Source: Mucilaginibacter rubeus
GTDB lineage: Bacteria; Bacteroidota; Bacteroidia; Sphingobacteriales; Sphingobacteriaceae
Direction of reading: 5' to 3'
NCBI RefSeq assembly: GCF_003286415.2
Contig: NZ_CP043450.1
Span: forward strand, 3,906,001-3,970,000
Length of the DNA: 64,000 nt
The notes under the pieces are model-generated. The model was not told where the DNA came from. It saw only the letters and a list, made by a program, of their open reading frames with translations, and made no database searches. The position numbers and the translations under genes were made by a program. Shown here piece after piece: positions 28,048 to 47,812 of this stretch; position 1 is the stretch's first letter, and the number at the start of each line of letters is the position of its first letter.

Positions 28048-30903
28048 TTATTTACCGGCAGTTGCCTCTGGAAGCAATTGCATACGGATGTAGTTTTTGC
28101 CGCTCAGGTATTTTTGCGCGGTAGCTTTTACGCTTTCTACAGTTACGCTATTCAAATCCTTAACATAGGTATCTAACTGGTGCAGGTCTTCCTTATCGTT
28201 GATCTGCCCGCCAATGTAGCCCAACCAGAAACCATTTGTACGTACCGCGGTTTCGCGGCTGCGGATACTCTCGGCACGCCATTTGTCAATGTTTACCTGT
28301 GCAGGGCCATTGGTTTTGATCTTGTTGATCTCATCCAGTGTTGAAGCTACCAGCTTGTCGGCATTTTTAGGATCACAACCAAAGTAAACGAATATAGAAT
28401 AACGTTGCGTAGGGAACTTGCTGTTATTGGCAAACGCGCCCGGCGAGTAAACACCGCTTTCATCTTCCCTTAAACGCTCAATCAGCCTGATCTCTAAACA
28501 CTCTTTCAAAGCATCCAGCTGGATCTTTTCGGCAGCGCTATATTCAAACGCACCTGACCAAATCAAATCAACAGAAGCTTTAGGTTCCGAGCCTTTGTAT
28601 ACGTTTTTAGCTATCTGCCCTTCCGGGATGTGAATTCCTAAGTCTTTAGCTTGTTCGCCCAGGTTTTTGGCCGGTAACGAGGCTATGTATTTTTCAAGCA
28701 GCGGTTTAATTTTTTCAATGTCGATATTACCAACAAAAGTGAAGGTCATGCCTGATGCATCGGCAAAACGCTCTTTATAAATAGCATACTCACGGTCAAG
28801 GTTAATCTGATCGATCTTGGCAATGCTCGGACCGGTACGACGAACGTTATGATTACCCAATACCGCGCTTAAAGTATCCTGGAACACAGCATTAGGATCG
28901 TTCAGCCTGTTTGCAAGCCCGGCTTTTGAGCTGGTGATAATACCCTGAAAAAGATCGGCATCTTTACGTGGCTCGGTTAAGTATCCGTAAATAAGCTCAA
29001 AGGCCGTTTCCAGGTCTTTAGGGGTTGAGCTTCCGCTAACGCCTTGTGTACGCTCGCTAATGTACGGGCTAACGCTTAGCTGCTTACCCGAAAGGTATTT
29101 CTCTAATTGTGTAGGATTATAATTACCCACGCCAAATGACTCAACCATACCCGACGCGTTTTTAGCCGACTCAAAATCAGCATCGCTGTAAAGCGATGTA
29201 CCACCCGGTGCCGAGGCACTGAACAGGATCTCGTTATCTTTAAAGTCGGTTGGTTTTAATACTACCTTGATACCATTGCTTAGCGTAAGGGTTGTTGTGC
29301 CCAGTGCGGCATCTTTGGTTTCGGCTGTGATTTTGCCGGCTACAGGCGCATTGGCTAACAACGCTTGTTTGCTCACCTCATCATTATAAGGTTTCAGATC
29401 TTCTGCTTCAACATCCTTTATCCAGGTGTTAACCACTGTTTCTGATGGCAGAGTGGCTTTATCCTTTTCAGGCGCAAGCAGCATCACATCACGATTGCTG
29501 TTTTTGATAGATGTTTTGGTAACAGCATTCACCTCGCTTAACGCAATACCAGGCAGGTCATTTTTTACCAGGTCATACTCGTAGCTGATACCCGGAGCTG
29601 CAGTACCCTTTAAAAAGTATTGCAGGTATTCGTTCACGTAGCTATCGGAATTGGTTTTGTTTTTCTCTTTCAGCGCCGATTCCATATCGCTCAGGAAGCT
29701 TTGTTTGGCACGGTCAAGTTCGGTTTGGGTAAATCCAAAACGCTTGATTCTTTCTGTTTCGCGCCAGGCAGTTTTGAAACCTTTTTCAAGCTCGCCGGGT
29801 TTAGCTACAGCGTATACGCTATAGGTATCTAATCCTCCTAAAAATCCGCTCAGGTCGGCACCACCTTGTAAATATGGAGGATTAGCCTGACGCATTATTT
29901 CAGCATAACGGGCACCAGACATCCTGTTGAATAAACCACGGATAATGCTTTGACGGTATTGAGAAGCGGTATGCAGATCAAGCGCCGGTTGTTTCATAAA
30001 CACCTGAGCCACAGTTACCGTCATTTCCTTATCGGTAATGGCAATAAACTGATTTTGCCCGGTCAATGGTACTGTATATTTAGTGCGGGGCTTTTCAGGA
30101 GATGGTTTCTTCAGATCGCTAAACTTGGCTTTAACGGTTTTCTCCATCTCATTAACATCGATGTCACCTACTACTATCAAGGCCTGCAAATCCGGACGGT
30201 ACCAATCGTGGTAAAAACGTTTGATGGTTTCGGGCTTAAAGTTATTCAATACTTCATCTGTACCGATAGGCAGGCGCAGCGAATAACGCGAGTGGTTAAG
30301 GATTACCGGCAGGTAAGCCCTTTGCATACGCTCCTGTGCACCTTTACCCAAACGTTTTTCTTCCAGCACAACACCGCGCTCTTTATCAATCTCAGTAGGA
30401 TCTAAAGTAGCATCCTGGGCCCAGTCGCGCATGATCTGGATGCCATTTTTCAGGATTTCAGGATTATCCGACGGGATAGGCAACTGATATACCGTTTCAT
30501 CAAATGAGGTATAAGCATTTAAATCGGCCCCGAAACGCACGCCAGATTTTTGCAGGTAACTCACCAGCTCATTTTTAGGAAAATGCTTAGTACCATTAAA
30601 GCTCATATGTTCCATAAAGTGAGCAAGGCCGCGCTGGCTGTCATCTTCCAATACCGAGCCAATCTTGTTGGCCAGGTAAAATGTAACACGTTTTTTGGGC
30701 TCTTCATTGTGGCGGATATAGTAGGTAAAACCGTTTGGCAGTTTGCCCGTACGCACCGCAGGATCAAGAGGCAGGTTCTTCTCTGCTGCTGCCTTTGTTA
30801 TTTTAGGTTTACTTACCTGCGCCCAAGTAGGGGCTGCCTGAAACGACCAACTGAGGGCAAGCCCCGCGCTGGCCAATAAAATAGTACTTTTTATGTTTTT
30901 CAT
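28048..30903 (-). CDS. M16 family zinc metallopeptidase, two-repeat pitrilysin/insulinase type
   Basis: This 951-residue exported protein has a signal peptide (about 1-28). The active N-terminal M16 domain carries the inverted zinc motif HxxEH as His95-Phe-Met-Glu98-His99, with a further Glu in ERGVVLEE. A second M16 module (about 530-930) lacks the zinc motif, as usual for the inactive half. Such periplasmic peptidases cleave short peptides in a closed chamber. It follows the redox genes on the same strand, but a strong terminator at 30939-30967 lies in between, so it is probably its own transcription unit. Its closeness to the metalloprotease-rich operon suggests a shared task in peptide breakdown, which is inference. 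Confidence 0.9.
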   Translation of the reverse strand: MKNIKSTILLASAGLALSWSFQAAPTWAQVSKPKITKAAAEKNLPLDPAVRTGKLPNGFTYYIRHNEEPKKRVTFYLANKIGSVLEDDSQRGLAHFMEHMSFNGTKHFPKNELVSYLQKSGVRFGADLNAYTSFDETVYQLPIPSDNPEILKNGIQIMRDWAQDATLDPTEIDKERGVVLEEKRLGKGAQERMQRAYLPVILNHSRYSLRLPIGTDEVLNNFKPETIKRFYHDWYRPDLQALIVVGDIDVNEMEKTVKAKFSDLKKPSPEKPRTKYTVPLTGQNQFIAITDKEMTVTVAQVFMKQPALDLHTASQYRQSIIRGLFNRMSGARYAEIMRQANPPYLQGGADLSGFLGGLDTYSVYAVAKPGELEKGFKTAWRETERIKRFGFTQTELDRAKQSFLSDMESALKEKNKTNSDSYVNEYLQYFLKGTAAPGISYEYDLVKNDLPGIALSEVNAVTKTSIKNSNRDVMLLAPEKDKATLPSETVVNTWIKDVEAEDLKPYNDEVSKQALLANAPVAGKITAETKDAALGTTTLTLSNGIKVVLKPTDFKDNEILFSASAPGGTSLYSDADFESAKNASGMVESFGVGNYNPTQLEKYLSGKQLSVSPYISERTQGVSGSSTPKDLETAFELIYGYLTEPRKDADLFQGIITSSKAGLANRLNDPNAVFQDTLSAVLGNHNVRRTGPSIAKIDQINLDREYAIYKERFADASGMTFTFVGNIDIEKIKPLLEKYIASLPAKNLGEQAKDLGIHIPEGQIAKNVYKGSEPKASVDLIWSGAFEYSAAEKIQLDALKECLEIRLIERLREDESGVYSPGAFANNSKFPTQRYSIFVYFGCDPKNADKLVASTLDEINKIKTNGPAQVNIDKWRAESIRSRETAVRTNGFWLGYIGGQINDKEDLHQLDTYVKDLNSVTVESVKATAQKYLSGKNYIRMQLLPEATAGK

Positions 30904-30938
30904 ATTTTGTTTATCGGATTAGGATTCAGCGCTAATTT

Positions 30939-30967
30939 AAAAAAGAGCCGGTATTAAAACCGGCTCT
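30939..30967 (-). terminator. Intrinsic terminator closing the sigma/SusCD/redox locus
   Basis: On the minus strand the 9-bp arms AGAGCCGGT and ACCGGCTCT (30944-30967) are followed by six T residues (30939-30944). It lies 83 bp past the short TlpA gene and 36 bp before the M16 start. Confidence 0.85.
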
Positions 30968-31049
30968 CCGGAAAATTAAACTAACTAAACTGATGAAAAC
31001 GCCCGAAAGCTTCTTTAAGGTTTGCTAAATGCTATCCTGTTAATGTCTT

Positions 31050-31604
31050 TTATTTAGTAAATGTATCTTTCAGATACCCGTCCATATCGGTAGCAGCCGG
31101 GTTAACCAGTATCACCTTCCCTCCTGCATCAAGCATAATAGCAAATGGTACAGACTGGATCCCTAAGGCCGTCATCATTATTGAGGCGTCTTTGCCTTCC
31201 TCATACCTATCAATTCCCTGCTGCCATGGCATAGCTTCTTTAAGCATAGCGTTTTTCCAGGCTTTGCTGTTCTGATCTATCGAAACGCTTAAAATCTCAA
31301 ATCCTTTGCCGTGATATTTTTGGTAGAGTTCCTTGAGATGCGGGATGGCAGCCCGGCAGGGCATACACCACGACGCCCAAAAATCAACAAGTACCGCATG
31401 CCCCTTTAACGATGATAATTTGATGGTTTTACCATCGGCAGTTTGTAACTCAAAAACCGGCAATGGTTTTCCAACAGTCAGGTTTTGACTGGCGTCAGCG
31501 GTATCTTGTTTTGATGATGACGCTTTTCCATCTGCCTTCCATCCTGTGCTTAAGGCAAGTGCTACCGGTGTTACCAACAACAACCTTTTAAAATTTATTT
31601 TCAT
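31050..31604 (-). CDS. TlpA-like periplasmic thiol-disulfide oxidoreductase
   Basis: This 184-residue protein has a signal sequence (about 1-26) and a thioredoxin-fold TlpA domain (about 42-183). The redox pair is Cys80-Met-Pro-Cys83 in FWASWCMPC, with the family cis-Pro region near SVPFAIMLDAGGK. It is likely to reduce or isomerise disulfides in exported proteins or substrates. It is the last gene before the terminator at 30939 and starts 9 bp after the preceding gene. Its neighbour also carries a DsbD-alpha-like domain, which could supply electrons to a thioredoxin-like protein such as this one. It is shorter than the DUF4369-TlpA protein of the same locus. Confidence 0.9.
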   Translation of the reverse strand: MKINFKRLLLVTPVALALSTGWKADGKASSSKQDTADASQNLTVGKPLPVFELQTADGKTIKLSSLKGHAVLVDFWASWCMPCRAAIPHLKELYQKYHGKGFEILSVSIDQNSKAWKNAMLKEAMPWQQGIDRYEEGKDASIMMTALGIQSVPFAIMLDAGGKVILVNPAATDMDGYLKDTFTK

Positions 31605-31613
31605 TGAGCTGGA

Positions 31614-33494
31614 TTATAAAACCTGTATTTCAATTATTTTTCTTTTTGGCGGGAAACATTTGTTGTTATCACAAACCTGGTAGTAAAGGCCGCATTTAAT
31701 CACCATTCCGGGCTTTAATGAGGCCGTGCTGATTTCCGTTTTAAATGTTGCCTTGTCTTCCCAAACAAACATGCCTTCGCCACCGGTAAATGGTACGCCG
31801 GCTGATGTTTGCCATTCGGTGTTTGTTATGCCTTTGGGCAACTCAATGATAGGTTGTGTGGTAATAAAAGGACTGTCCTTTGGCACATACGCATAAATAT
31901 GCCAGCCTTGTAAAATATCGGCCTTAACAACCACCTGTTTTTTCCCGTTTGCCTCATCAACTAATTTGGCGCTCACTATCACCGGGTCGGTACGGGTTGG
32001 CATTATTGCCGCATTTGCAGTTTTCATGTCGCCGGTTGGTGCCGGTACAACTGCTGTTGTTTCAGCTTTATAAATATTCACCATGAATTTGAAACCGCCC
32101 GATTCAGTGTAATAAAGGTTCGCTTTGTTCCTGGTCAACCAATCACGCCACTCTTTAGCCGACGCGAATTTTTCGGTGGTATACCTTTCCAGTACCCGTT
32201 GCGCCAGGGCAGGCTCCTCCCCTTTTTCAAGCATTTTGATACATTTTTCCAGCAACTCAACTTTACGATTGGAGATACCCAGTTTTTTGGCATCCTCATC
32301 AACCTGTAATGAGTAAGCATCAAGCGGGTAAAAGTATTCGAGGTTGGCAAGGTAGTACTTATGATAAGCTGAGGTATTGGTACCAAACATATCATACATA
32401 CCACTACCAGCCCAGCTTTTAAGGTAATCATCAAAGCTTTGTGTATCATCGGTAACGGGCATTTTCAAAAACATCTCGTTTCCACGGCCAATATCTTCGC
32501 CTTTGGCTTTGCGGTCTTTAAGTTCCTGCTGCATTTTCAGCAAACGGGCGTTGCCTTCTTTCCGGGCAATCAGCGCTTTTTCATACAGGCCCTTATCTGT
32601 GCGATAGATCATTTCGTTAACCCATTCACGATTCTCGATCTGCACTTTTTTCATGATGGGTTTCTGATGGTCAAACTTTTTGATGTAGCAAACGGTATTC
32701 ACCAATACGTCCTTAGCCTCATCAGTCATGTGATTGGGCGAACCCGAAAATCCCCACATAAAATAATTACCCTGACGCCCCAATGCCACAGCCTCGGCAT
32801 TTTTAAGACAAACGCCACCACTTATCGCTTCCGCATCGGGCGAATCATTGAAGCCCTCGCCGTGGGCTACCATGCCGATAATGTATTTATCCTTAGCAGC
32901 CGGATCTTCTTTGATCACCTTCCACATAGGTAGTTCCTTTGGCGCTGTACCCCCCTGAAAACCGTTAAAAAAAGAACCCGGCGTAGGCCTGTTAACCAAA
33001 GTTAAATTCACTTTGATAGGCGTATTAAATATAGCATGACTGGTTTTAATGTTCAGCGCGTCATCCTCCAGACACTGGCAATACCAATCGAATTTCAGGC
33101 CAATAGGCAAGCCTACGTTTGGGGCCATTTCATGCATCAGAATTATAGGACGATCAAAACCGGCAGGCAATTTTACTGGCCCGGCATCAAGGATGGTAAC
33201 ATCTACCTTCTCCGACATCGCAGCATCGTAATCCCTTACATCCACAACATCAGCCTTTTCAAATCTTTGCTCTAAAAATGCCTTAAAATCGGCCATGCGG
33301 GTTTTCCATGCCTCATCAATGGCACCTGTAGCCGTACTATAATAATTTACATGCTCCGGCTTGGGTTTTGCAGGGTCATAACCTACATATAAAACATGGA
33401 GCGTTATTTTACCTGCTCCATGTTTCATTACGTCACCAAAAGTGGCCGCACCAAACACAAGGCAAAGCAGCAAAGCCAAACTGATCTTTTTCAT
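31614..33494 (-). CDS. Exported protein of unknown function with C-terminal DsbD-alpha-like (DsbD_N) domain
   Basis: This protein of about 626 residues has a signal peptide (MKKISLALLLCLVFGAATF; the frame also allows a Met 27 bp earlier, inside the preceding gene). Residues about 25-280 look like a ThuA-type, glutamine-amidotransferase-like alpha/beta domain (VDVTILDAGPVKL, then RPIILMHEMAPNVGL), but this is tentative. A charged helical middle (about 290-470) precedes a C-terminal immunoglobulin-like DsbD N-terminal domain (about 500-626). That domain keeps the paired cysteines in YQVCDNNKCFPPK (about Cys608 and Cys613), which in DsbD pass electrons to periplasmic partners. No membrane DsbD part is present. 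It is flanked by two TlpA genes with 7-9 bp gaps, pointing to one redox unit. Confidence 0.7.
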   Translation of the reverse strand: MKKISLALLLCLVFGAATFGDVMKHGAGKITLHVLYVGYDPAKPKPEHVNYYSTATGAIDEAWKTRMADFKAFLEQRFEKADVVDVRDYDAAMSEKVDVTILDAGPVKLPAGFDRPIILMHEMAPNVGLPIGLKFDWYCQCLEDDALNIKTSHAIFNTPIKVNLTLVNRPTPGSFFNGFQGGTAPKELPMWKVIKEDPAAKDKYIIGMVAHGEGFNDSPDAEAISGGVCLKNAEAVALGRQGNYFMWGFSGSPNHMTDEAKDVLVNTVCYIKKFDHQKPIMKKVQIENREWVNEMIYRTDKGLYEKALIARKEGNARLLKMQQELKDRKAKGEDIGRGNEMFLKMPVTDDTQSFDDYLKSWAGSGMYDMFGTNTSAYHKYYLANLEYFYPLDAYSLQVDEDAKKLGISNRKVELLEKCIKMLEKGEEPALAQRVLERYTTEKFASAKEWRDWLTRNKANLYYTESGGFKFMVNIYKAETTAVVPAPTGDMKTANAAIMPTRTDPVIVSAKLVDEANGKKQVVVKADILQGWHIYAYVPKDSPFITTQPIIELPKGITNTEWQTSAGVPFTGGEGMFVWEDKATFKTEISTASLKPGMVIKCGLYYQVCDNNKCFPPKRKIIEIQVL

Positions 33495-33501
33495 ATCCGT
33501 A

Positions 33502-34638
33502 TTAATTAAAAATTTCGGCAAGTTTGGTATTCAGGGATTCATCGCGCAGGGTGTTACCGATGATCTTACCGTCTTTATCAAGCAAAAAGCTTTGCGGTAC
33601 AGCCCTCACGCCGTATAAACGTCCAACAGCATTATTCCATCCTTTTAAATCAGACACATGGATCCATGGCAAGCCATCTTTGGCAATGGCGTCAACCCAT
33701 TTTTCCTTTACATTATCAAGCGAAACCGAAATAATCTCGAAGCCTTTATCCTTATAAAGCTCATATTGCTTTTTAAGGTTAGGATTACCGGCACGGCATG
33801 GCGCGCACCAGCTTGCCCAAAACTCAACCAAAACATATTTGCCTTTTAAATCGCTTAGCGAAACTGGCTTTCCGTTTACATCATTTTGGATGAACATTGG
33901 CGCGGCTTTGCCAATTGCGGTGATGCCGGCTGCCTGTATCCGCTGCTCAAGTTCCTTACCTACATCTGTACTCCGCAACTGTGCGTTAAGCGCTTTAAAT
34001 ACCGGGCCAACTTTATCTGCATCAACCTTAATACCGGCCGACTCAGACAGGCCTACCAAACCAAAGTATGAGTTGGGATTGTTTTTGGCGAAGAGAAATT
34101 GTTTTTCATTTCTATCGGCGATGCTTTTGCGATAACGTGCATCAATAGCTTTTACAAAAGCGGTATCTTTTTGCTGCTCAGGAGTAGCACGTGAAAATTC
34201 GGCATTAACGGCTTTGGTTAAATCCATAATGGTACCGCCTATCTGCTTGTTATATGCCTGAAACTCGTCGTAAACTTTTGAGCCCGTAACTTTAGCATTT
34301 ACCAGTGAATCGGCCGAGGTATATACCATATTCTCTTTACCGAAATAGATATAAACCACATCGGCATTTGGGGCATAAATAGCGTGTTGTTTGCCCTGCC
34401 CGGTATGATCAAATGCCATGCGGCTGGTAGTTATACCTGATACATTGCCTGTAAATTTAAACGTACCATTGGTAACCACGCATGAATCTTCATGACTGTT
34501 ACCATTATCCATATAATCGATATAGGCTTTGGCAGGTTTATCCAGTTTACCGATGTATCCGGTAATGCTGAAGTTAGCTTTCTGAGCCGAAGCCATGAGC
34601 GGCAACAAGGCAGCCAGAATTGATAATTTTAATTTCAT
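33502..34638 (-). CDS. DUF4369-TlpA type thiol-disulfide oxidoreductase
   Basis: This 378-residue exported protein has a signal peptide (1-18, LMASAQ) and an N-terminal DUF4369 beta domain (about 22-115: FSITGYIGKLDKPAKAYIDY). A helical linker leads to a C-terminal TlpA/AhpC-like thioredoxin fold (about 240-378) with the redox pair Cys278-Ala-Pro-Cys281 in FWASWCAPC. This architecture is common in Bacteroidetes and often sits beside SusCD loci. The gene starts 26 bp after the first zincin gene and is followed 7 bp later by the DsbD-alpha-like protein. It is likely co-transcribed in the sigma/FecR-linked locus. Confidence 0.9.
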   Translation of the reverse strand: MKLKLSILAALLPLMASAQKANFSITGYIGKLDKPAKAYIDYMDNGNSHEDSCVVTNGTFKFTGNVSGITTSRMAFDHTGQGKQHAIYAPNADVVYIYFGKENMVYTSADSLVNAKVTGSKVYDEFQAYNKQIGGTIMDLTKAVNAEFSRATPEQQKDTAFVKAIDARYRKSIADRNEKQFLFAKNNPNSYFGLVGLSESAGIKVDADKVGPVFKALNAQLRSTDVGKELEQRIQAAGITAIGKAAPMFIQNDVNGKPVSLSDLKGKYVLVEFWASWCAPCRAGNPNLKKQYELYKDKGFEIISVSLDNVKEKWVDAIAKDGLPWIHVSDLKGWNNAVGRLYGVRAVPQSFLLDKDGKIIGNTLRDESLNTKLAEIFN

Positions 34639-34664
34639 TTTATGTTGTGAGAGTTAAAAAAATG

Positions 34665-35597
34665 TTATTTGTATTTCAATTTAGGGAACTCCTTGCGGGC
34701 CGCGTTGTACTGTGCTTCCCATTCGTCTGTCCAGCCGAAGGCTTGTTTGGCCTGTTCTTTAAGGTTTACACCTGCGGCCCCGCTCCAGAAATGGACAAAC
34801 TCACCCCAATTCATATCGCGGGTATATTCGCGCCCCTGTTGGTTTTTCTGTTGAGGAAAGTTGGCCGCCAGTAAGGCAAAATATTTATTGAGCACCTTTG
34901 CTTTGCCATAGTTACTGTAAATAGGATAAAACCAGTTTTTAAACCAAAGACTTTTTGGCCGGGGGAAATCATCATACTGGGTTTGCATTTGCTGGTATAT
35001 TTTTTCAGCCTCATCTTCGCGACCGATATGCAGCATCACATCGTAATTGAAGATCTCCATGAACTTACTGTCGCCCCAAAGCGCATCTGATGGTGAGCCT
35101 TTTACGCCATGACTTGCTCCGCTTACTATATGCCCCATTTCATGGATTGGCATCGCGAGCTGTTCGCCGTTTGGCTTTTGCCAGGTACCTAAACCACAGT
35201 CGATGGTGTTGCGGTAGTCATGACTATCATCAAAATAAGTAGCAGGATGACCACCGCCATAAATACCCTGGTGAAAAACTGTATACAGCCTGGTTGAATC
35301 GCCGAAACTGCCGTAAGTACTTTTAACATATTCCCAGGCGGCCGACATAGTTTTGTAGGGCCAGGTAACCGACTTATCCATTCCTTTATCATAGTAAACA
35401 GCCACATTTTTATCCTGGTAAACCAATGATAATGCCTGGTCATGCTCAAACCAATGCTCATGCCAAGTTGATGGTGGCAGGCCCTGTTTGTGATTTGCTT
35501 TTAACTCATCAATTGTTAAACATTTACCATAAAAAAAGGAAAATGATGCAATGATGATCCCTCCTACAAGGAGTTTAGCCGGTGTACTCTTTTTCAT
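34665..35597 (-). CDS. Exported HExxH metalloprotease-like protein (zincin), paralog 1
   Basis: This 310-residue protein has an N-terminal hydrophobic export segment (about 8-24) and no classical lipobox. The zinc-binding motif is His152-Glu153-Met-Gly-His156, and Glu181 in DSKFMEIF lies 24 residues later, a spacing that fits a gluzincin third ligand. Conserved landmarks shared with its neighbour include GGGHPA, HDYRNTID, NYGK-VL-KYF and NWGEFVHFWSGAAGVNL. I do not recognise a named family. It is followed 26 bp later by the DUF4369-TlpA gene. A gap of 131 bp separates it from paralog 2. A role in proteolysis of a captured substrate is plausible but untested. Confidence 0.75.
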   Translation of the reverse strand: MKKSTPAKLLVGGIIIASFSFFYGKCLTIDELKANHKQGLPPSTWHEHWFEHDQALSLVYQDKNVAVYYDKGMDKSVTWPYKTMSAAWEYVKSTYGSFGDSTRLYTVFHQGIYGGGHPATYFDDSHDYRNTIDCGLGTWQKPNGEQLAMPIHEMGHIVSGASHGVKGSPSDALWGDSKFMEIFNYDVMLHIGREDEAEKIYQQMQTQYDDFPRPKSLWFKNWFYPIYSNYGKAKVLNKYFALLAANFPQQKNQQGREYTRDMNWGEFVHFWSGAAGVNLKEQAKQAFGWTDEWEAQYNAARKEFPKLKYK

Positions 35598-35728
35598 TAT
35601 TTAATATCAGTTAACATATGCAGAACCGGGAACGGCACCCCTACTCTTAAATGAGCGCCGCCCGGCCTGCAAAAACTTTGTGTTATATTCCAGTTCGATG
35701 TAATGCGTACCTGCATTAAAAAGGACTA

Positions 35729-36646
35729 TTAATCTTTGTATTTAATATCCGGAAAATCTATCCGAGCCTGGTTAAACTCCTCTTCCCATTCATCGCTCCA
35801 GCCAAAAGCGATAGTTGCCTGAAACTTGAGGTTTACCCCTGCTGCTCCACTCCAAAAATGGATCCATTCGCCCCAGTTGAGATCGCGGTTAGACGGAACA
35901 TATTTGGCATACAACTGGAAATATTTACTAAGCACCGGCCCTTTGCCGTAATTATTCCAAACGGGGTAAAACCAACCTGCAAACCAATTTGACTCCGGGT
36001 TCGGAAAAACCTCGCGCAGATCCTTGAGCTGGTAGTAAAGTCGGGAAGCTTCGTCCTGCCTACCGATGTTCATGAGTACATCGTAAATGAAAATCTCAGC
36101 AAATTTGCTGTCGTGCCAGATGTTTTGGTCTTCATGTGCGTGTCCCCATGAAGCATTGGCTACAATATGTCCCATTTCATGAATAGGGATAGCGATCTGC
36201 GTACCTGTTGGATATGTCCAGTTATCCAGCCCGTCGTCGATAGTATTGTGATAATCGTGTGTCGAATCGCGCCAGGATGCGGGGTGGCCGCCGCCTAATT
36301 CGCCGGTGGTATCAACCGTTGAATGGAAAATGCAATACAGGCGTGGATCTTTGCCAAAGTCGCCATAGTTTTTCTTAACATAAGCCCAGGAGTCAGACAT
36401 GGCCTTAAAGGTCCACGTAACTGATGGATCCATGTTGGCATCATAGTAAATGGCTACATTATCATCATAATAAACGCGTTTCAACAACTGGTGATGCAAG
36501 CCCCAATGCTCCTGCCATGTTTTGGCCGGCGCACCCGGCGGATCAACCTCTTCCTTAACTGTATCTTTTGTTTTTTTGCATGACGCAATGGTTAATACGG
36601 CCATGAGCAAGCCTATTAAGAATGTTGTTATCCTTATCAATTTCAT
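35729..36646 (-). CDS. HExxH metalloprotease-like lipoprotein (zincin), paralog 2
   Basis: This 305-residue lipoprotein has a lipobox ending at Cys23 (TIASC). The zinc motif is His156-Glu157-Met-Gly-His160, and Glu184 in DSKFAEIFIYDV lies 23 residues later. It aligns with the next gene over its whole length, including GGGHPA, HDYHNTID, NYGKGPVLSKYF and NWGEWIHFWSGAAGVNL, so the pair arose by tandem duplication. The two copies differ in anchoring: this one is lipidated, the other is not. It starts 18 bp after the PKD-like gene, in the same run as susCD. It does not resemble the Peptidase_Mx1 family often seen with DUF4843 and PKD-like partners. Confidence 0.8.
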   Translation of the reverse strand: MKLIRITTFLIGLLMAVLTIASCKKTKDTVKEEVDPPGAPAKTWQEHWGLHHQLLKRVYYDDNVAIYYDANMDPSVTWTFKAMSDSWAYVKKNYGDFGKDPRLYCIFHSTVDTTGELGGGHPASWRDSTHDYHNTIDDGLDNWTYPTGTQIAIPIHEMGHIVANASWGHAHEDQNIWHDSKFAEIFIYDVLMNIGRQDEASRLYYQLKDLREVFPNPESNWFAGWFYPVWNNYGKGPVLSKYFQLYAKYVPSNRDLNWGEWIHFWSGAAGVNLKFQATIAFGWSDEWEEEFNQARIDFPDIKYKD

Positions 36647-36664
36647 GTCGATTTTAATAAATGG

Positions 36665-38086: not shown

Positions 38087-38105
38087 GATACGCTGGTTTT
38101 ATCAA

Positions 38106-38945
38106 TTATTCCATTGTTACTTTTGCCCCTGTTTCGCTGTCAATAAAATAGGATTTATCTACCTCGGGGAAATATTTGTACAGGAACCGTTTGGTTGGCG
38201 AATTGATATAGTAAAACTCGTAATCCCTGGTGCCTGCTTTTGGTGTTATAACGTAGCCCTTTTCAGGGTGCTCCTGAACCCAGCCAATAGGATCTCTTAA
38301 AAAAGTTCGGGTGTTTTCTATGTAGTACAGGCAACGCGGAATCTGGAAATTAGGATCGCCATAGGTTTTATAGTCAATCAGATCGCGTGTGCCCGAAGTA
38401 ATTAAAAACAACTGGTGCTTTGTACGGCCGTATTCCTTCACCTCATCAAGCCATGAATTCCACCAGAAAGGTTTTTCAAGCCGGTTCGAGAACAAAATGG
38501 TTTTAGTACGCAAACTATCGGGCATGTTATTGGTAAAATCACCGGTACCCGAAACACGGATAGTTAATATCACAGATTTGTTCTCAAGCGCAGCGTCCGT
38601 ATTTTTAAGAATAACTGGAACCTTTACCACACCAGAATCGGCAGGCATAGTATAAGTTGGTTTCAGTGCTTCGTAATGCAGCGGGCTGATTGCTGTGGTA
38701 GCAGTATCAACCAGGCTAATTGAAAAACTCCTGGCCTGATGGCTCCGTTTACCCGAAATTATTACTGGGATCCAAACCGTATCCTGTACAAGGGTAGGAT
38801 CGTAAGCAAAAGAATAGGTAAGCGTATCCTTTTTGGGGTAATTGAAATAAATATTATCGGTTGAATTGTAGAAAAACTTTGCATCTTTCTTACATCCAAA
38901 TAAAATGGTGCCCGCAAGCAGTATAAAAAGTATTTGCTTTTTCAT
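38106..38945 (-). CDS. DUF4843 domain surface lipoprotein
   Basis: This protein of about 279 residues has a lipoprotein signal (LFGCKKD, lipid Cys near residue 18). The DUF4843 fold is shown by YFNYPKKDTLTYSFAYD, a VTIPVIISG-like strand (here VWIPVIISGKRSHQ) and SLVDTATTAISPLHY. The C-terminal part (FWWNSWLDEVKEYGRTKHQLFL) is usual for the family. It sits between susD and the PKD-like gene with gaps of under 25 bp. The start at 38945 is preferred; another Met lies 9 bp upstream. Its function is unknown beyond association with SusCD complexes. Confidence 0.85.
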   Translation of the reverse strand: MKKQILFILLAGTILFGCKKDAKFFYNSTDNIYFNYPKKDTLTYSFAYDPTLVQDTVWIPVIISGKRSHQARSFSISLVDTATTAISPLHYEALKPTYTMPADSGVVKVPVILKNTDAALENKSVILTIRVSGTGDFTNNMPDSLRTKTILFSNRLEKPFWWNSWLDEVKEYGRTKHQLFLITSGTRDLIDYKTYGDPNFQIPRCLYYIENTRTFLRDPIGWVQEHPEKGYVITPKAGTRDYEFYYINSPTKRFLYKYFPEVDKSYFIDSETGAKVTME

Positions 38946-38959
38946 CGTCATCATTATTA

Positions 38960-40435
38960 TTAGTTATTTCTGAAAGCTTCCTCATCTGGCGGCAGCGGGA
39001 ACACAAATATTTTATCGGTAGCCGGATAGCTAATCCCCGAAGTTGCTTTAACAGGTACGTTAAGCCTTTTATACATGTAAAAGATCTGGCTTTCCCCATA
39101 AAACTCCTTCCGGGCTTCTTTCAGCAGCAAATCAATAAAATCAGCTTTAGCTGGAACTTCGGTTAAATCGTTCCCTATGCCACGGCTTCTCCTTACGGTG
39201 TTATAGTAATTCATAGCTTTAAACGGGTCGGTATCAAAGCTGGCCTCAGCGGCTATATAGTACATTTCGCTAAGCCTTAATGCCGGTGCAACCAAAGGGT
39301 GCAAGTTTTTTACCGGTGCTGTATTGGTGAGGTATTTTTGCAGCAAAGCTCGTTCAATACTGCTTGACCCAATTTTAGTTTTGAAAAACCATTGCCTGTA
39401 TCGCCAATCGTCGGCGCCATCCGCACCTGATTCATAGATATCATCTATCTGTGTGCTGGTTGGCGAAAAAAGAGGCGCATCGCCTGCAAAAGCAGCCAAC
39501 AGGTAGTTTTTAATGTCTTTGTTATCATTAATATACCAGCAGCTAATAAGTTCTTTGTAAAAAATACGGTCTTTTTTAGTGTTATCGCTTTGGTTAAAAT
39601 CGGTACCGTTTGTTGCCGGGAAACGTTTTGAATTAATTACCTCATTGGCCATGGCCAGGCTATTAACCATATCGTTTTTATACAGGTATGCCCTTGCAAG
39701 CTCGCCGCAGGCGGTAAAATAGTTCATGCGCTGGCGGCGGTTTTGCATAAATAAATCAGGATCAGAAACTTCGGGGCTACCGTCATCGCCAGGATACCCA
39801 ACGGTATAATTTGAAACGATGGGATCTGAAGAGCGGAACAATGTTCTTGCGGTTTTCAAATCGGTGATAACACTATCAAGCGCCTGGCTCACTGTCGAGA
39901 ACTTAGTGCTTTTGATAGTGACCGATGTTACATAAGGGATACCGCTTGCATTAGGCTTGCTTTTGTATGATGGCGCAAACATCCTGAGCATATCAAAATG
40001 CAGGTAAGCCCTTAGCGCCAACGCTTCGCCTTTTATCAGCTCATAATTGTGCCCGGTAAACAGGTTTTTCTTTTTCTCAATATTATTTAAAATGTAGTTG
40101 CAATTGGCAATGGCGCGGTAACCTGAATTCCAGATGTCTGTATTGCGGTTAATAAGATCAACATAAGTATAGTTGAAGCTGGCGATATTGGAATAACCAA
40201 CATCAGTAAAATCATAGTTTTGAGCCATAACATCCAGGTAGCCGAACGTAAGACTTTCGCCATATAGTGACGGGCCTGCACACAGGGTGTACACCCCATT
40301 AAGGGCCTCTTTAAAACCCTGCTCGTTTTCAAACAGCTGATCCTGCTCAATTTGCGAGGTAGGCTTTACATCCAGAAACTTTTTACATGATGTAAAGGCC
40401 ATCAGCACGGTTAGTATATATAAATATTTCTTCAT
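38960..40435 (-). CDS. SusD/RagB-like substrate-binding lipoprotein
   Basis: This protein of 491 residues, counted from MKKYLYIL at 40435, has a lipobox TSC with Cys17 followed by KKFLDVKPTSQIEQDQLF, the classic SusD N-terminus. TPR helices (AYLHFDMLRMFAPSY) and a C-terminal RagB region (YYNTVRRSRGIGNDL and KEARKEFYGESQIFYMYKRLN) complete the family pattern. It starts 11 bp after the STN-type susC and forms its lid and ligand-binding partner. An upstream in-frame Met at 40471 lies inside the end of susC and is less likely. Confidence 0.95.
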   Translation of the reverse strand: MKKYLYILTVLMAFTSCKKFLDVKPTSQIEQDQLFENEQGFKEALNGVYTLCAGPSLYGESLTFGYLDVMAQNYDFTDVGYSNIASFNYTYVDLINRNTDIWNSGYRAIANCNYILNNIEKKKNLFTGHNYELIKGEALALRAYLHFDMLRMFAPSYKSKPNASGIPYVTSVTIKSTKFSTVSQALDSVITDLKTARTLFRSSDPIVSNYTVGYPGDDGSPEVSDPDLFMQNRRQRMNYFTACGELARAYLYKNDMVNSLAMANEVINSKRFPATNGTDFNQSDNTKKDRIFYKELISCWYINDNKDIKNYLLAAFAGDAPLFSPTSTQIDDIYESGADGADDWRYRQWFFKTKIGSSSIERALLQKYLTNTAPVKNLHPLVAPALRLSEMYYIAAEASFDTDPFKAMNYYNTVRRSRGIGNDLTEVPAKADFIDLLLKEARKEFYGESQIFYMYKRLNVPVKATSGISYPATDKIFVFPLPPDEEAFRNN

Positions 40436-40446
40436 TGCTGTATTTG

Positions 40447-43400
40447 TTAAAATGTAGCCTGTAATGAACATGTTAAACTGCGGGCAAACGGATAATCGAT
40501 ACCCCGCTCCACGCCCGCGCTTGCCGAACGGAAAATATCATTGGCCGTGAACGCTATCCTGAGCAGTTGCAGCCCGAGTCTTTTAGTCACTGCACGGTTC
40601 AAATCGTATGATAAATAAACCGACTTAAGCTCAACCAGGTTATCCTTTTGTACAAAGCGCGATGTGGCGTAAGTAGTGCCCAAATCGGCTATATTTTTGT
40701 AAAAGGAGATATCGCCAGGCTTTTTCCAGCGCTCTTCAAGGGCACGGCTGTCAACGTTAAACCGCGGATCGGCATTCTCTACCCTATCAACTAAAGTTTG
40801 GTTATACAACTGGCCACCAAACTGGTAGTGAAAATTAAAACTTAACAAAAACTGCTTGTAGGTAACATTGCCGCCAAAGTAACCTTCGGCCTTTGGTGTT
40901 ATATCGCCCACGGGCTGGGTATCTTTTACATCGTAAACGTAAGTGAGCGTGCCATCCCTTTTAACGTAGATCTCCTTTCCTGTTTCCGGGTCAATCCCCA
41001 TTGACTTTACGGCCCAGATAGTGTTTAATGATAAACCTTCCCGGTACCTGAGCAAAGGTGTACCCTGCAGGTTATTTTTGGTGTTGGCCTGCATGGTATC
41101 GACCATGTTGTTGTATGACTTTAAAGCATTGGAGATTTTAACAATTGTGTTTTTATTATGCGCCAGGTTGGCAGTAAGGTTAACATTAATATCCTTTGCC
41201 CGGTAAGCATTTACAGTTACGGCAAGCTCATAACCTTTATTGGTCATATCGCCCAGGTTGGCTTTGTAAGTTGTAAAACCGGTTGATGGGGCTATGTTAA
41301 TATCATTAACCAGGCCATGTGTAAGCTTATAATAGTAATGCGGAATAAGGGTAACCTTGTCATTAAACAAACCCAGATCAAGCCCTACATCATAGTTATC
41401 GGTTTTTTGCCATTTCAAGCTTTCGTTACCATAATTATTTACGGTAGCACCTATGCCTGTTGAGTACCAATTGGCACTTTGATAACTATAGGTAGTTTTT
41501 GACAGGTACGCCGGAAAATCTACCGAACCAACCATACCTGCGGTTACGGTTAATTTCATCCTGTTAATAACCGGCGAAAGGTTTTTCATAAAATTCTCGC
41601 GGTGGATGTTCCAGCCCAAACCGCCCGAATAAAACGGCGCATACCTGCTATTTGAACCAAAAGCCGATGAACCATCAAGGCGGAATGTAGCATCAACCAG
41701 GTACCTGTTTTTGTACGAATAGTTGGTTGAGAAAAGCGTACCCACCAGCCTTGTCAGGGTAATATCCCCATTGGGGTGGCCATCGGGCTCGTAGCTGCGG
41801 GCAAAGCCTACATTGGTAAACTTATCATTTGAAAAGCCTCTTGCTACAAATGATTTAGCATCGTTTCTGTCTGATGTGATATTGGCGCCTAAAACCGCGT
41901 TAATGGCATGATCGCCCATTATTTTGTTGTAGCTAAGCCTGGCGTTACCATCAATATTGAGCATATTATTGCTGCCATAGGTGTAACTGCCACGGTTTTG
42001 AATTTCGCTGGCAGGGGTTAAATAAAATACGTTGCTATATGGCGAAATAAATTGATCGGCAGTAGCTTTATTATCAATCAGGCTAACCAGGCCTAAAAAT
42101 CGTAAAGACGGCGTAATCCTCCAATCGATTGAAAGGTTATCCAAAACCTCAAGGTAAGCGTTCTTATCAAAATTACCCAGGCTGGCTTCATAAAGCGGGT
42201 TTAACACAGGTACGTTCTTAAACTGATCCTGCCCTTCGCCATGGGTGTCAACACGCCAGTTGGCAATTTCCCTGATCAGGTTACCGCTTGCATCGCTGAT
42301 GGGATAATAAGGATTCATGCGTACATAGGTGCTAAAATCACCATATTTAGAGTTAGCAGCGTTAACCTGCGTAACCGTAAGCTCATTCTTAAAAAGCAAA
42401 TTGCGCGTAGGGTTATAGTTAAACACCATACCACCACTGTACCGGGTACGACCCGAACCTTTCATTACCCCCGGAGTGTTCTGATAACGCAGATCAACAC
42501 CATACCTGAATGTTGTATCGCCACCCTCGGCATATAAAGTATGCTTATGGCCAAAGGTGTTTTGCAGGGGCTGCGACAGCCAATAGGTATTTACACCGCT
42601 TACCACATTTTTAAGCCTACTATAATACATTTCATCAAGCTGATCTTGCGTATAGGCCGCCGAATTTCCTGTAACATATAAACCCGCCAGCTTTTCATAT
42701 TCCAGCTTTTGCGATGCGTTAAGTACGTGATAATCGGTTAAATCGGGTGCGGTAACGGTTAGTTCATAGTTATAGGTAAGCTGTAATTTACCGGGCTTGG
42801 GCACTTTAGTGGTTATCACAATAACGCCGTTTGCAGCGCGCGAGCCATAAACCGCCGTAGCTGCAGCATCTTTTAAAATGGTGATACTGGCTATACGATT
42901 GATATCAAGGTCGGTTACTTTTTGCAGGGTTGCCTCAAAGCCGTCCAATATAAAAGCAGGTAAATTGTACGAGCTTGAAAGATTGTTGCGGTCAAGCACA
43001 CCGCCGTTTAATGATGGTAGCGTGGTTGATCCCCTAACGTTAATTTTGGGCAACGCGTTAGGGTCCGAGCCTAAAAGATTATTTTGATCTATCCTGAAAG
43101 AGGGATCAAACGATGCCAAACTTTCAATTATATTATTAGGGTTAACGCGTTTAAGATCATCCCCCTTTATAGTGATGGCGCTACCCGTATAATTATCTCT
43201 TTTGATAACCTGGTAGCCGGTTACCACCACATCATTGATATTATTCATTTTTTGCCCAAGCTTTATTAGCATTGGTTTACCTGCAACTGCCTTAATTTCC
43301 TTTGTGTTGTAGCCTATATAGGTAAATACCAGCATATCACCTTCATCAACAGTTACTTTAAACTCACCGTTACCGTTGGTTTGCCCTAAAAAGGTTTTAG

Positions 43401-43875
43401 TTTTTTTAAGCGTGATGCTTACCCCCGGCAGGGTTGTTTTATTATTTGCGGAGTCGATAACTGTGCCGCTTATTTCTATCTTTTTTGCAGCTTCTGCCGG
43501 CCCCTCCTCGGGCACCTTATTCCTGATCACGATCGTTTTATTTACTATGGTATAGGTGAGTTCATAGTTTTTGAGCAGGATACCAAGAGCATCGGTTAAA
43601 GGCACATTCTTAAGCTCAACATTTTGAGTTTTGCCACCTGTATTTATTTTTTCGCTGTAAAAAAACAAATACCCGGTTTGCAGCTTTATATCCCTGAAAA
43701 GAACTTCAAGCGTGGCGTTCTTACGCGATATGGTTACCGTTTGCGAATAACTCGCAGCAGATAAGTGCAATGCGCCAATAAGCAGCAGGATAGTGGTGAG
43801 TTTCAATACTAATAAGAATTTGCACTTTACCCCCCGCATTGCGCATACGGCGTTGTAAAGAAAAGTTAATTTCAT
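40447..43875 (-). CDS. SusC-like TonB-dependent receptor/transducer with N-terminal STN domain
   Basis: This 1142-residue receptor has a long signal region (about 1-45, HLSAASYSQ) and a secretin/TonB short N-terminal (STN) domain (about 46-115: LEVLFRDIKLQTGYLFFYSEK, then LTYTIVNKTIVIRNK). A carboxypeptidase-regulatory-like domain (about 132-215) leads to a plug (about 225-330) and a barrel ending in a terminal Phe. The STN domain is the module that contacts a FecR anti-sigma factor in the periplasm. Genes for such a FecR and an ECF sigma factor lie directly upstream, so this is a cell-surface-signalling transducer as well as a transporter. The gap to fecR is 224 bp and could hold a promoter. 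Confidence 0.95.
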   Translation of the reverse strand: MKLTFLYNAVCAMRGVKCKFLLVLKLTTILLLIGALHLSAASYSQTVTISRKNATLEVLFRDIKLQTGYLFFYSEKINTGGKTQNVELKNVPLTDALGILLKNYELTYTIVNKTIVIRNKVPEEGPAEAAKKIEISGTVIDSANNKTTLPGVSITLKKTKTFLGQTNGNGEFKVTVDEGDMLVFTYIGYNTKEIKAVAGKPMLIKLGQKMNNINDVVVTGYQVIKRDNYTGSAITIKGDDLKRVNPNNIIESLASFDPSFRIDQNNLLGSDPNALPKINVRGSTTLPSLNGGVLDRNNLSSSYNLPAFILDGFEATLQKVTDLDINRIASITILKDAAATAVYGSRAANGVIVITTKVPKPGKLQLTYNYELTVTAPDLTDYHVLNASQKLEYEKLAGLYVTGNSAAYTQDQLDEMYYSRLKNVVSGVNTYWLSQPLQNTFGHKHTLYAEGGDTTFRYGVDLRYQNTPGVMKGSGRTRYSGGMVFNYNPTRNLLFKNELTVTQVNAANSKYGDFSTYVRMNPYYPISDASGNLIREIANWRVDTHGEGQDQFKNVPVLNPLYEASLGNFDKNAYLEVLDNLSIDWRITPSLRFLGLVSLIDNKATADQFISPYSNVFYLTPASEIQNRGSYTYGSNNMLNIDGNARLSYNKIMGDHAINAVLGANITSDRNDAKSFVARGFSNDKFTNVGFARSYEPDGHPNGDITLTRLVGTLFSTNYSYKNRYLVDATFRLDGSSAFGSNSRYAPFYSGGLGWNIHRENFMKNLSPVINRMKLTVTAGMVGSVDFPAYLSKTTYSYQSANWYSTGIGATVNNYGNESLKWQKTDNYDVGLDLGLFNDKVTLIPHYYYKLTHGLVNDINIAPSTGFTTYKANLGDMTNKGYELAVTVNAYRAKDINVNLTANLAHNKNTIVKISNALKSYNNMVDTMQANTKNNLQGTPLLRYREGLSLNTIWAVKSMGIDPETGKEIYVKRDGTLTYVYDVKDTQPVGDITPKAEGYFGGNVTYKQFLLSFNFHYQFGGQLYNQTLVDRVENADPRFNVDSRALEERWKKPGDISFYKNIADLGTTYATSRFVQKDNLVELKSVYLSYDLNRAVTKRLGLQLLRIAFTANDIFRSASAGVERGIDYPFARSLTCSLQATF

Positions 43876-44099
43876 ATTTTTGAATAAGATTGGGTTAATA
43901 AAATGCAGCCCAGGGCTTCGACATCTTGTGCTGCCTGACCTATTTTAAACCGGAAGCGGTGAGAGGCTTCCGGTTAATTTTTGGTCTGTTAATAGGAGAT
44001 ATGGCTGAGATTTATCGTAGTTGTTTATCCATCAAGCATTGTTTTAGTGATTAGCATTTAGTTTTGTTTAGTTGTTAGTATAAAGTTTAAGGTTAAATA

Positions 44100-45266
44100 T
44101 TATTTACTGTACGATACCGTCACCGTTTTACCCTCCACCCTAAATTTCATGTTGTTAAGTTCCAGGATCTTGAAAACATCAGCCAGGTTGCTGCTTCTTG
44201 AAATTTCGCCGAAGAATTTTTCAGTCGGCATATCACCCTCATAAACCACATCGATATCATACCAGCGGCTTACCTGGCGCATTACCTCACGGATATCCTC
44301 ATCTGCAAATGAGAATACGCCGTTTTTCCAGGCCACTTCCGCATCAAGATTTACTTGTTGCTTACTGATAACACCATTACCCTGACGGCTTATTACAGCC
44401 TGCTCACCGGGAACAATAAGCGTTGAGTTGGTTTCTGATATCACCTTCACCGAACCTTCCAGCAGCGTTGTTTTGACAACTGCTTCATCTGCATAAGCAT
44501 TGATATTAAAATGCGTACCTAATACTTCAATAGTTTGCAATGCTGATTTTACTCTGAAAGGCATCGCTTTATTTTTAGTAACTTCAAAGTACCCTTCACC
44601 ATTAAGTGTTACCACCCGCTCTGCTCCCTTAAAAACTGTTGGATAGCTTATTGAGGATGACGCGTTAAGCCATACGTTGGTACCATCGGGCAGGATCACT
44701 TTATATTGCCCCCCTTTGGGTGTGGCCACTGTATTTTGAACTGCCTGATCCTGTCCTGTCGCGTCGGCCTGATAAACTATCTGCCCGTCTGCAGTTTTGG
44801 TAATTTTCACACCAGCCTGTTTAGCTATCTGCCCCTTAGCGGCATCATCAAGCGATATGGTTGTGCCGTTAGCCAAAGTAAGCGTAGCCTTGTTTGTTCC
44901 CGGCACTATTCCCTTATAGTTATCTGCTGTGAAATTATTGGCCGTATGATTACCACGAATCAAAAAGTAAGCGCCAACCGAAATAAACAACATAATTGAT
45001 GCCGCCACAGCGTACCTGATCCAGCCAGATCTTGAAGGCATGGTAATCGGCTTTTTTTCGAATTGCGCTATCCGCTCGTCAACGTTAGCTTTAATGGCAT
45101 GTTTCAGATATAGATAGTCGGCCTCATTCTCGTCGGTAATCAGATCATCATTTAAATCAAACAGGTTATAATACGACTCCAGGAATTTAATTTCTTCCTG
45201 GGTAGCCTCACCAAGCCTGTATTTTGTTAGTATTTGTATAAAATATTGTTTGTTCGCCTCGTCCAT
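44100..45266 (-). CDS. FecR-family anti-sigma factor with DUF4974 C-terminus
   Basis: This 388-residue membrane protein has a cytoplasmic N-terminus (about 1-83) that would bind the sigma factor, and one transmembrane helix (about 84-105, AVAASIMLFISVGAYFLI). A periplasmic FecR domain (about 180-285: YKVILPDGTNVWLNASSSISYP, GEGYFEVTKNKAMPF) and a DUF4974 domain (about 315-388: IREVMRQVSRWYDIDVVYEG) complete it. The family receives the signal from an STN-type receptor and releases the ECF sigma factor. The three genes sigma, fecR and STN-susC are in order on one strand. It lies 177 bp after the sigma gene. Confidence 0.95.
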   Translation of the reverse strand: MDEANKQYFIQILTKYRLGEATQEEIKFLESYYNLFDLNDDLITDENEADYLYLKHAIKANVDERIAQFEKKPITMPSRSGWIRYAVAASIMLFISVGAYFLIRGNHTANNFTADNYKGIVPGTNKATLTLANGTTISLDDAAKGQIAKQAGVKITKTADGQIVYQADATGQDQAVQNTVATPKGGQYKVILPDGTNVWLNASSSISYPTVFKGAERVVTLNGEGYFEVTKNKAMPFRVKSALQTIEVLGTHFNINAYADEAVVKTTLLEGSVKVISETNSTLIVPGEQAVISRQGNGVISKQQVNLDAEVAWKNGVFSFADEDIREVMRQVSRWYDIDVVYEGDMPTEKFFGEISRSSNLADVFKILELNNMKFRVEGKTVTVSYSK

Positions 45267-45443
45267 TTACATCCTTTATATATACATGAGTCGGCAAAAT
45301 GAAAATAGCCCATGTTAATTGAAAATATTTTTAATGTTTTATTTAAAAATAGCACATATTACCAATCAAACTGATAAAATTAAACCAACAAAGCTGCATT
45401 ATTAATAAAAAAACAACATCAACTTTAGAGAAAAAACGTTTTA

Positions 45444-46022
45444 TCAGCCCTTTTGATAAAAATAAAGCAACACATAAAATAAAAAAAGCGACTTGCGAAG
45501 CGTGGCAAGGGCCTTTCCCATTTGGTTACGGACTGTTTTTGGTGAGATTTGCAGCTGATCTGCAATTTGCTGGCTTGAGAGGCCTTCATTAAAGCGCAAA
45601 TTGAATATAACACGCTGTTGGGGTGGCAAAGTATCTACAAGCTCGTTAAAAGCTTTTAAAAACTCATCATGGAGTACATTGGCATCGGCACGACCAAGGG
45701 GGCTTTCAATTTCCTGCACGGTATCCGGCAATGCCGCATAGCGCGATTCCTTCTCCATGTATTTGAAAACGCCGTTACGGGCGGCAACGAGCAAATAAGC
45801 CGATAGGTTTTCAATAGGCGATTTTGATCCGCGCACCCACAATTGCACAAATACATCCTGGGCAATATCCTGTGCCCGCTCAATATCATTAACCCGTTTG
45901 TATGCCGTGTTATAAACCTGTTTCCAATATTTGTTATACAACGCGTCGAAGGCAGGTTTGTAGCCTTCGCTGATAAGTTTCAGAAGTTCAGCATCGTCGG
46001 CTGATAAGTCAAGGGGGGCCAT
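45444..46022 (-). CDS. ECF-type RNA polymerase sigma-70 factor
   Basis: This 192-residue protein has region 2 (about 25-90: FDALYNKYWKQVYNTAYKRV, then AQDIAQDVFVQLWVR) and region 4 (about 125-180: PPQQRVIFNLRFNEGLSSQQIADQLQISPKTVRNQMGKAL). It is of the Bacteroidetes type that works with FecR anti-sigma factors and SusC transducers. It probably transcribes the susCD operon downstream and perhaps itself. The leading M-A-P-L start at 46022 fits; no earlier Met is in frame nearby. A TATATTTG box on this strand (46106-46113) may be its housekeeping promoter. Confidence 0.95.
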   Translation of the reverse strand: MAPLDLSADDAELLKLISEGYKPAFDALYNKYWKQVYNTAYKRVNDIERAQDIAQDVFVQLWVRGSKSPIENLSAYLLVAARNGVFKYMEKESRYAALPDTVQEIESPLGRADANVLHDEFLKAFNELVDTLPPQQRVIFNLRFNEGLSSQQIADQLQISPKTVRNQMGKALATLRKSLFLFYVLLYFYQKG

Positions 46023-46965: not shown

Positions 46966-46968
46966 ATC

Positions 46969-47802: not shown

Positions 47803-47812
47803 TTGAAAATAT

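Follow-up and report, generated by a model that had tools for sequence, protein, structure and literature searches.

A conserved SusCD locus with thiol-redox proteins and an exchangeable surface cassette in Mucilaginibacter rubeus: a candidate importer of disulfide-containing peptides

SusCD systems are by default read as glycan loci. Here we describe a SusCD locus of Mucilaginibacter rubeus, whose genome is a single contig of 7.63 Mb, that combines a signalling outer-membrane importer with thiol-redox proteins and peptidases. It lies in a window of 64,000 nucleotides (the whole stretch of DNA that was analysed), where one minus-strand run from 46022 to 28048 encodes an extracytoplasmic function (ECF) sigma factor, FecR, a SusC with an STN domain, SusD, DUF4843 and PKD_2 proteins, two HExxH proteins (zincins), DUF4369-TlpA, ThuA-DsbD-alpha and TlpA, followed by an M16 peptidase. 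ThuA-DsbD-alpha is our name for a 635-aa protein that contains a DsbD_N domain. Judged from gene neighbourhoods, the conserved core of such loci is sigma-FecR-SusCD-TlpA-(ThuA-DsbD-alpha). A surface cassette of ~9 kb is swapped as a unit between species, and the sensor and periplasmic genes stay alike, at 92–99% identity. We suggest, with about even confidence, that the locus is a SusCD-based, ligand-induced, protease-associated import system for disulfide-containing peptides or glycopeptides, analogous to Fus/PqqL. A preliminary description of this DNA had proposed that a disulfide-rich protein is captured, reduced, cleaved and imported in pieces. The core of that idea survives and is partly supported, with the zincins demoted to an exchangeable accessory and a glycoprotein element added; we infer the disulfide-rich nature of the substrate.

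The strongest evidence comes from synteny. The order set comprised 39 loci with the fusion gene, and genes were counted when they stood in the same-strand run. SusC and SusD were each present in 38 of them, TlpA in 37, FecR in 36 and the sigma factor in 34; DUF4843 was found in 17, a trypsin-like protease in 13, a zincin in 4 and an M16 peptidase in 3. Of random genes, fewer than ~10% would be expected to have SusC on their own strand in the 12 kb upstream of them, a rough estimate from the Plug matches of the genome that is no formal probability, and relatives share ancestry. A wider set of 61 loci (L171–L231) covered Chitinophagales, Flavobacterium, Odoribacter, Bacteroides, Phocaeicola, Prevotella, Muribaculaceae and others; a few of these loci come from genomes that the order set had sampled too. 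SusC was near the fusion gene in 52 of these loci, with the exceptions mostly in Planctomycetota or at contig edges. The linkage of redox genes with SusCD, which the preliminary description had named as its own check, thus held strongly. In the 7.6-Mb genome of M. rubeus the DUF4843 gene is unique and the full-length ThuA-DsbD-alpha gene is present in a single copy. Together with the phylum-wide SusC linkage, this makes the gene set of the locus more than chance.

Accessories of some loci are full DsbD, a desulfurase-like enzyme, M16, and trypsin/HtrA-like proteases. M16 occurs in 15 of the 61 wider loci, and 11 have a member of a cluster from which one representative was tested and proved to be full-length DsbD (PF02683). 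The Flavobacterium versions bring in DsbD together with M16 and a desulfurase resembling SufS. This divergent cysteine desulfurase, which scores below the curated cut-off of its family, lies in five Flavobacteriaceae loci (L212, L228, L230, L231 and L184) and hints that cysteine sulfur is used or that there is an iron-sulfur connection. Peptidase families (zincin, BSP, M16, trypsin/HtrA-like) substitute for one another across loci, and such recurrence of peptidases of differing families fits a proteinaceous substrate.

The fusion protein has a single Pfam match, the C-terminal DsbD_N (PF11412). Four cysteines are invariant in 27 relatives (down to 34% identity): an N-terminal CxC and a CX4C in the DsbD-alpha part. 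In an AlphaFold model (mean predicted local distance difference test, pLDDT, 81), residues 500–626 match nDsbD (Z 10.9, root-mean-square deviation (rmsd) 2.4, 109 aligned), so that this domain shares with DsbD both the predicted fold and a cysteine pair. Unlike DsbD, the fusion lacks a membrane or gamma domain (no transmembrane or C-terminal thioredoxin domain was matched) and is joined to a ThuA-like CxC domain and a helical region. Residues 17–277 match the ThuA-like class I amidotransferase fold (4jqs, Bacteroides uniformis; Z 10.5, rmsd 5.0, 188 aligned), a weaker match than that to nDsbD because part of the region is modelled at low confidence. It was found by the VIA search alone, and none of the Foldseek matches listed fell in this half. 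Unlike 4jqs, the protein carries the invariant CxC, is joined to DsbD-alpha and has no ThuA Pfam match up to E 1, and its likeness to ThuA is one of fold only. In nine divergent loci the ThuA-like and DsbD-alpha halves are two adjacent genes, a pattern of fusion and fission that argues for a joint function. In three loci (L186, L226, L227) the N-terminal part is in a second reading frame. At the order level, the gene of Pedobacter metabolipauper (L043/L181) is the only one that stands alone, with neither SusCD nor TlpA nearby.

Closely related versions of the locus come from Mucilaginibacter, and comparison with M. endophyticus (L152) revealed two sharp DNA edges. Through FecR and as far as about codon 83 of susC, the two sequences share 91.8% identity; the value is then below ~72%, or the DNA is unalignable, up to the start of the DUF4369-tlpA gene, and from there through M16 it is 94.5%. 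At the protein level, ThuA-DsbD-alpha is 97%, M16 99% and SusC 62% identical to that of L152, in which a BSP peptidase replaces the zincins. The SusC of L152 is 94–95% identical to those of L154, L155 and L156, whereas the ThuA-DsbD-alpha proteins of these three are only 87–88% identical to that of L152. The incongruent identities and the sharp edges therefore indicate that the surface module, from the body of SusC to the zincins, was exchanged as a unit. Such exchange could alter substrate specificity while sensing and periplasmic processing stay constant. It offers a natural experiment for mapping specificity, with a constant sensor and processing part and a different capture module.

The twin zincins, which the preliminary description counted as part of the system, belong to this exchangeable cassette. 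Neither matches a Pfam or NCBIfam model. In 38 homologues H156, E157 and H160 are invariant, and D179-S180-K181-x-x-E184, ~20 residues past HExxH, is invariant or nearly so. The AlphaFold model (pLDDT 90.5) matches M1, M30 and M60-like enzymes with tied Z of 12–13.5. With the HExxH helix, the fold and a downstream acidic third ligand, the zincins are predicted to be of gluzincin (clan MA) type. We rejected the names M60, M30 and M1, since the fold scores are tied and no M60 model is among the Pfam matches up to E 1 of the 38 members. Single and profile PDB sequence searches found no meaningful relative of the zincins, and the PDB sequence search with PKD_2 found none either. A lipobox-like cysteine of zincin A (C23) is 81% conserved in the family. 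Zincins A and B are ~53% identical and are not sisters in the tree, where the tandem pairs of L113/L116 group together and the two copies of L118 do likewise; by this topology, tandem pairs arose more than once. As a signature the pair fails: family members occur in 93 of the 400 genomes sampled from the order versus 3 of 395 phylum-wide, and in only 4 of the 39 fusion-gene runs. A third zincin of the genome is in another SusCD locus (C1:112000–131000, L037), where the next gene falls in the BSP-peptidase cluster.

Linkage of the zincins to SusCD is nevertheless real. Among 41 zincin-anchored runs (one representative per cluster scanned with Pfam), SusC was found in 35, BSP peptidase in 15, the mannosidase GH92 in 12, TlpA in 11, the fucosidase GH29 in 10 and a trypsin-like protease in 7; what does not hold is a place for the zincins in the core of the redox-SusCD loci. 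Two type-A loci, L120 and L168, combine a zincin, TlpA, ThuA-DsbD-alpha, GH29, a trypsin-like protease and GH92. These neighbours suggest that the wider zincin family targets proteins and glycoproteins. The proposal of a protein or peptide substrate thus stands as far as recurrent peptidases, and DsbD as electron source in Flavobacterium, support it, and has to be widened to glycoproteins. Likewise, the window run contains no carbohydrate-active enzyme (CAZyme) family among its Pfam matches, as the preliminary description had noted, and so lacks what would mark a polysaccharide utilisation locus, but to conclude from this that no glycan is involved would be too simple. A glycoprotein N-glycan could even be the main nutrient, with proteases and thiol enzymes opening the protein for glycosidases of relatives or from elsewhere in the genome. 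The GH92, GH29 and BSP counts, the two type-A loci and a C-terminal F5/8 C domain on four long zincins all speak for this. Nevertheless, we consider it unlikely: glycosidases are absent from the window locus and from most fusion-gene loci, and the thiol genes follow SusCD even where no glycosidase is present.

Among the characterised enzymes found, the M16 peptidase is closest to PqqL (5.4e–69), then to FusC entries (2.5e–48); the matches are full-length and score far above pitrilysin and insulysin. The nearest solved structure, PDB 9ldy, was not identified in the open-access literature. A paralogous locus of the same genome (C1:4462500–4474400) contains a sigma factor, FecR, SusC, SusD, DUF4369-TlpA, a thioredoxin-like protein and an M16 that is 49% identical to that of the window; its SusD-like gene was assigned from position and sequence reading. 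Distant M16-anchored loci have the order sigma-FecR-SusC-SusD-TlpA-DsbD-M16 (L242, L246), SusCD-M16 (L244) or DsbD-M16-TlpA (L245). From these gene orders, the SusCD-thiol-M16 combination appears to recur also without ThuA-DsbD-alpha. M16 was rejected as a constant part of the unit, since such loci hold only ~1/3 of the M16 anchors.

The kinship of the M16 enzyme raises the possibility of iron or metal piracy, in which SusCD would import a metalloprotein or metallopeptide, and reduction and M16 cleavage would free the metal. FecR-sigma systems are classically tied to iron, and the SufS-like desulfurase of Flavobacterium loci and the invariant CxC of the ThuA-like domain are compatible with metal handling. 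The Fus system itself takes in plant ferredoxin, which FusC cleaves (PMC6071955, PMC6793856). We regard metal piracy as improbable here: no metal carrier, heme or siderophore genes turned up in the window locus, SusC belongs to the SusC/RagA family (TIGR04056, 587 bits versus a cut-off of 368), and the glycosidase neighbours do not fit.

Alternatively, the thiol enzymes may have clients within the locus. TlpA and DsbD-alpha relatives have general roles in periplasmic folding or cytochrome maturation, and the thiol genes might simply fold or repair envelope proteins of an otherwise ordinary nutrient-uptake locus. One possible conserved cysteine pair in SusD (80%) also favours folding. However, conserved cysteines are all but missing from mature SusC, DUF4843, PKD_2 and the zincins once the lipid-attachment cysteine is set aside (C134 of zincin B is 69% conserved and unpaired). 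The genome holds only nine DUF4369 versus ~140 Plug-domain matches, and such thiol genes are therefore no general companion of SusC. Folding or repair is thus a poor prospect. With so few cysteine clients within the locus, it is most economical to assume that the client is imported, and cargo is the most likely target of the thiol enzymes.

We therefore return to import of disulfide-containing peptides, for which the following sequence of events can be proposed. SusD, DUF4843 and PKD_2 would bind a protein or glycoprotein at the surface, and the zincins (a BSP peptidase in other alleles) would nick it. Fragments would then pass through SusC into the periplasm, with STN signalling via FecR to the sigma factor, a step established for these families and whose domains are seen here. 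TlpA, DUF4369-TlpA and ThuA-DsbD-alpha, with electrons from DsbD, might next reduce cargo disulfides and so unfold the cargo; the basis for this step is the redox motifs, the conserved gene linkage and the presence of DsbD in relatives. The reduced peptide would finally be digested, here by the chambered M16 and in relatives by a trypsin/HtrA-like protease. This order differs from the earlier one of reduction and cleavage before import. TlpA, the fusion and M16 have ordinary signal peptides, read by eye, and should be periplasmic, which makes import first the likelier course.

Several observations weigh against this interpretation. Outside the window the PqqL-like M16 stands alone at 9 of 14 anchors, and a terminator-like hairpin precedes it here. 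Relatives of the zincin loci carry glycosidases, and glycan may be the true prize; the SusD cysteine pair makes a folding role conceivable. ThuA-DsbD-alpha relatives in Planctomycetota (L186, L218, L222, L227) have no SusC detected nearby. A further alternative is uptake of a sulfur-rich modified peptide, made by the cell or a neighbour, as a signal or metallophore. Certain Bacteroidota clusters for ribosomally synthesised and post-translationally modified peptides often occur with SusCD genes (PMC12636315), and the exchangeable cassette resembles specificity alleles; no precursor-peptide or modifying-enzyme genes were recognised near the locus, the proteolytic families suit degradation better, and we find this idea very hard to credit. 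In the other direction, the import reading can be extended to reductive protein uptake across the phylum, in which SusCD and FecR-sigma are served by a relay from DsbD to ThuA-DsbD-alpha and TlpA that unfolds cargo so that chambered proteases can digest it; cysteine sulfur might be recovered as well, and trading of the cassette would change the prey protein. We offer this wider version tentatively, as a possibility somewhat doubtful in its full extent.

The genes named in the preliminary description were all recovered in place and on the same strand (Table 1). Spacing from SusC through TlpA ranges from overlaps to 131 bases, and these short gaps make co-transcription likely. The M16 gene does lie just beyond the run, with the refinement that a hairpin and T tract, a likely terminator, separate it from TlpA; M16 is therefore probably a separate transcript.

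Table 1. Features of the locus (window positions)
Feature	Position	Strand	Basis
ECF sigma factor	45444-46022	-	PF08281, PF04542
FecR anti-sigma/transducer	44100-45266	-	PF04773, PF16344
SusC, N-terminal STN signalling domain at residues 69-119	40447-43875	-	PF07660, PF13715, PF07715
Left cassette edge	43628		~codon 83 of susC, within STN; DNA identity to M. endophyticus under 70% downstream
SusD lipoprotein	38960-40471	-	PF14322, PF07980
DUF4843 lipoprotein	38106-38954	-	PF16132, 151 bits
PKD_2 lipoprotein	36665-38086	-	PF16407, 62 bits
Zincin A, lipoprotein, predicted gluzincin-like metallopeptidase	35729-36646	-	invariant HExxH, AlphaFold model, fold matches
Zincin B, family of zincin A	34665-35597	-	~53% identity to zincin A, tree
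Right cassette edge	34588		near DUF4369-tlpA start
DUF4369-TlpA thiol-disulfide oxidoreductase, CAPC motif	33502-34638	-	PF14289, PF08534
ThuA-DsbD-alpha fusion	31614-33521; probable true ATG at 33494	-	PF11412, 27-sequence alignment, fold matches
TlpA-like thioredoxin, CMPC motif	31050-31604	-	PF00578, PF13905
Putative intrinsic terminator between tlpA and M16	30942-30969	-	11-pair hairpin and T tract, consensus match
M16 peptidase, PqqL/FusC-like, full length	28048-30903	-	PF00675, PF05193

Divergently adjoining the locus (46318–48214, plus strand) are genes for a GntR/FCD regulator, a TauE/SafE sulfite-exporter-like protein and DUF1634, the first of which also occurs in L038, a close relative; a sulfur link between these neighbours and the locus is tempting, as conjecture only. 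Further on (48293–51721, minus strand), a single frame of 1142 aa combines an AraC-type helix-turn-helix (residues 225–306) with permease domains of the MacB_PCD and FtsX types. If real, this fusion of regulator and permease is an unusual one; its TTG start was assigned mechanically.

A conserved combination of SusCD, disulfide reduction and interchangeable peptidases would, if true, be the Bacteroidota counterpart of Fus protein import. Such a class would explain some CAZyme-free SusCD pairs and give the widespread ThuA-DsbD-alpha protein a first function. Our searches of the open-access literature turned up neither a SusCD locus equipped with its own disulfide-reduction relay nor the ThuA-DsbD-alpha protein, although subscription papers could contain such accounts, and nothing directly on DUF4843 with SusCD or on the gene combination.

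With a SusC/RagA receptor and an adjacent SusD lipoprotein, the locus is a SusCD/RagAB-type importer, and STN on SusC, FecR and the ECF sigma gene together form a transducing-receptor cascade. Peptide-importing SusCD pairs are known, as are SusCD loci with several peptidases (PMC7782687, PMC10132118). RagAB of P. gingivalis and BT2263-2264 of B. theta resemble the locus in their SusC/SusD pair, the precedent of peptide import and allelic variation, RagAB having four alleles (PMC11817032). In contrast, the available portions of these sources describe no linked thiol-redox or M16 genes there, and here, unlike what those portions describe, lipoproteins and a surface peptidase are exchanged along with SusCD. 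The mucin O-glycoprotein locus BT4240-50 likewise has SusCD, ECF sigma/anti-sigma regulation and, in the M60-like BT4244, a surface zinc glycopeptidase of gluzincin fold, and shares the logic of protease plus glycan (PMC11992087). It differs in its CAZymes and in that the word 'disulfide' is absent from the main text of its paper, and none of the Pfam models for M60 matches the zincins described here.

Proteobacteria are known to import proteins with the help of a linked M16 enzyme, in what are called Fus or protease-associated import systems (PAIS; PMC6793856, PMC6071955). The main text of the PAIS paper, on Proteobacteria, is without SusD, thioredoxin or disulfides, and it treats SusC as a distinct family that has diverged strongly (PMC6793856). 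By family assignment the transporter here is SusC/RagA with an adjacent SusD and not FusA, and sigma/FecR regulation and dedicated thiol-redox proteins also set the locus apart. What it has in common with FusA-FusC of Pectobacterium and YddB-PqqL of E. coli (PMC6793856) is a TonB-dependent transporter linked, here and in relatives, to a full-length-type periplasmic M16 of the FusC/PqqL kind, and the scheme of import followed by cleavage.

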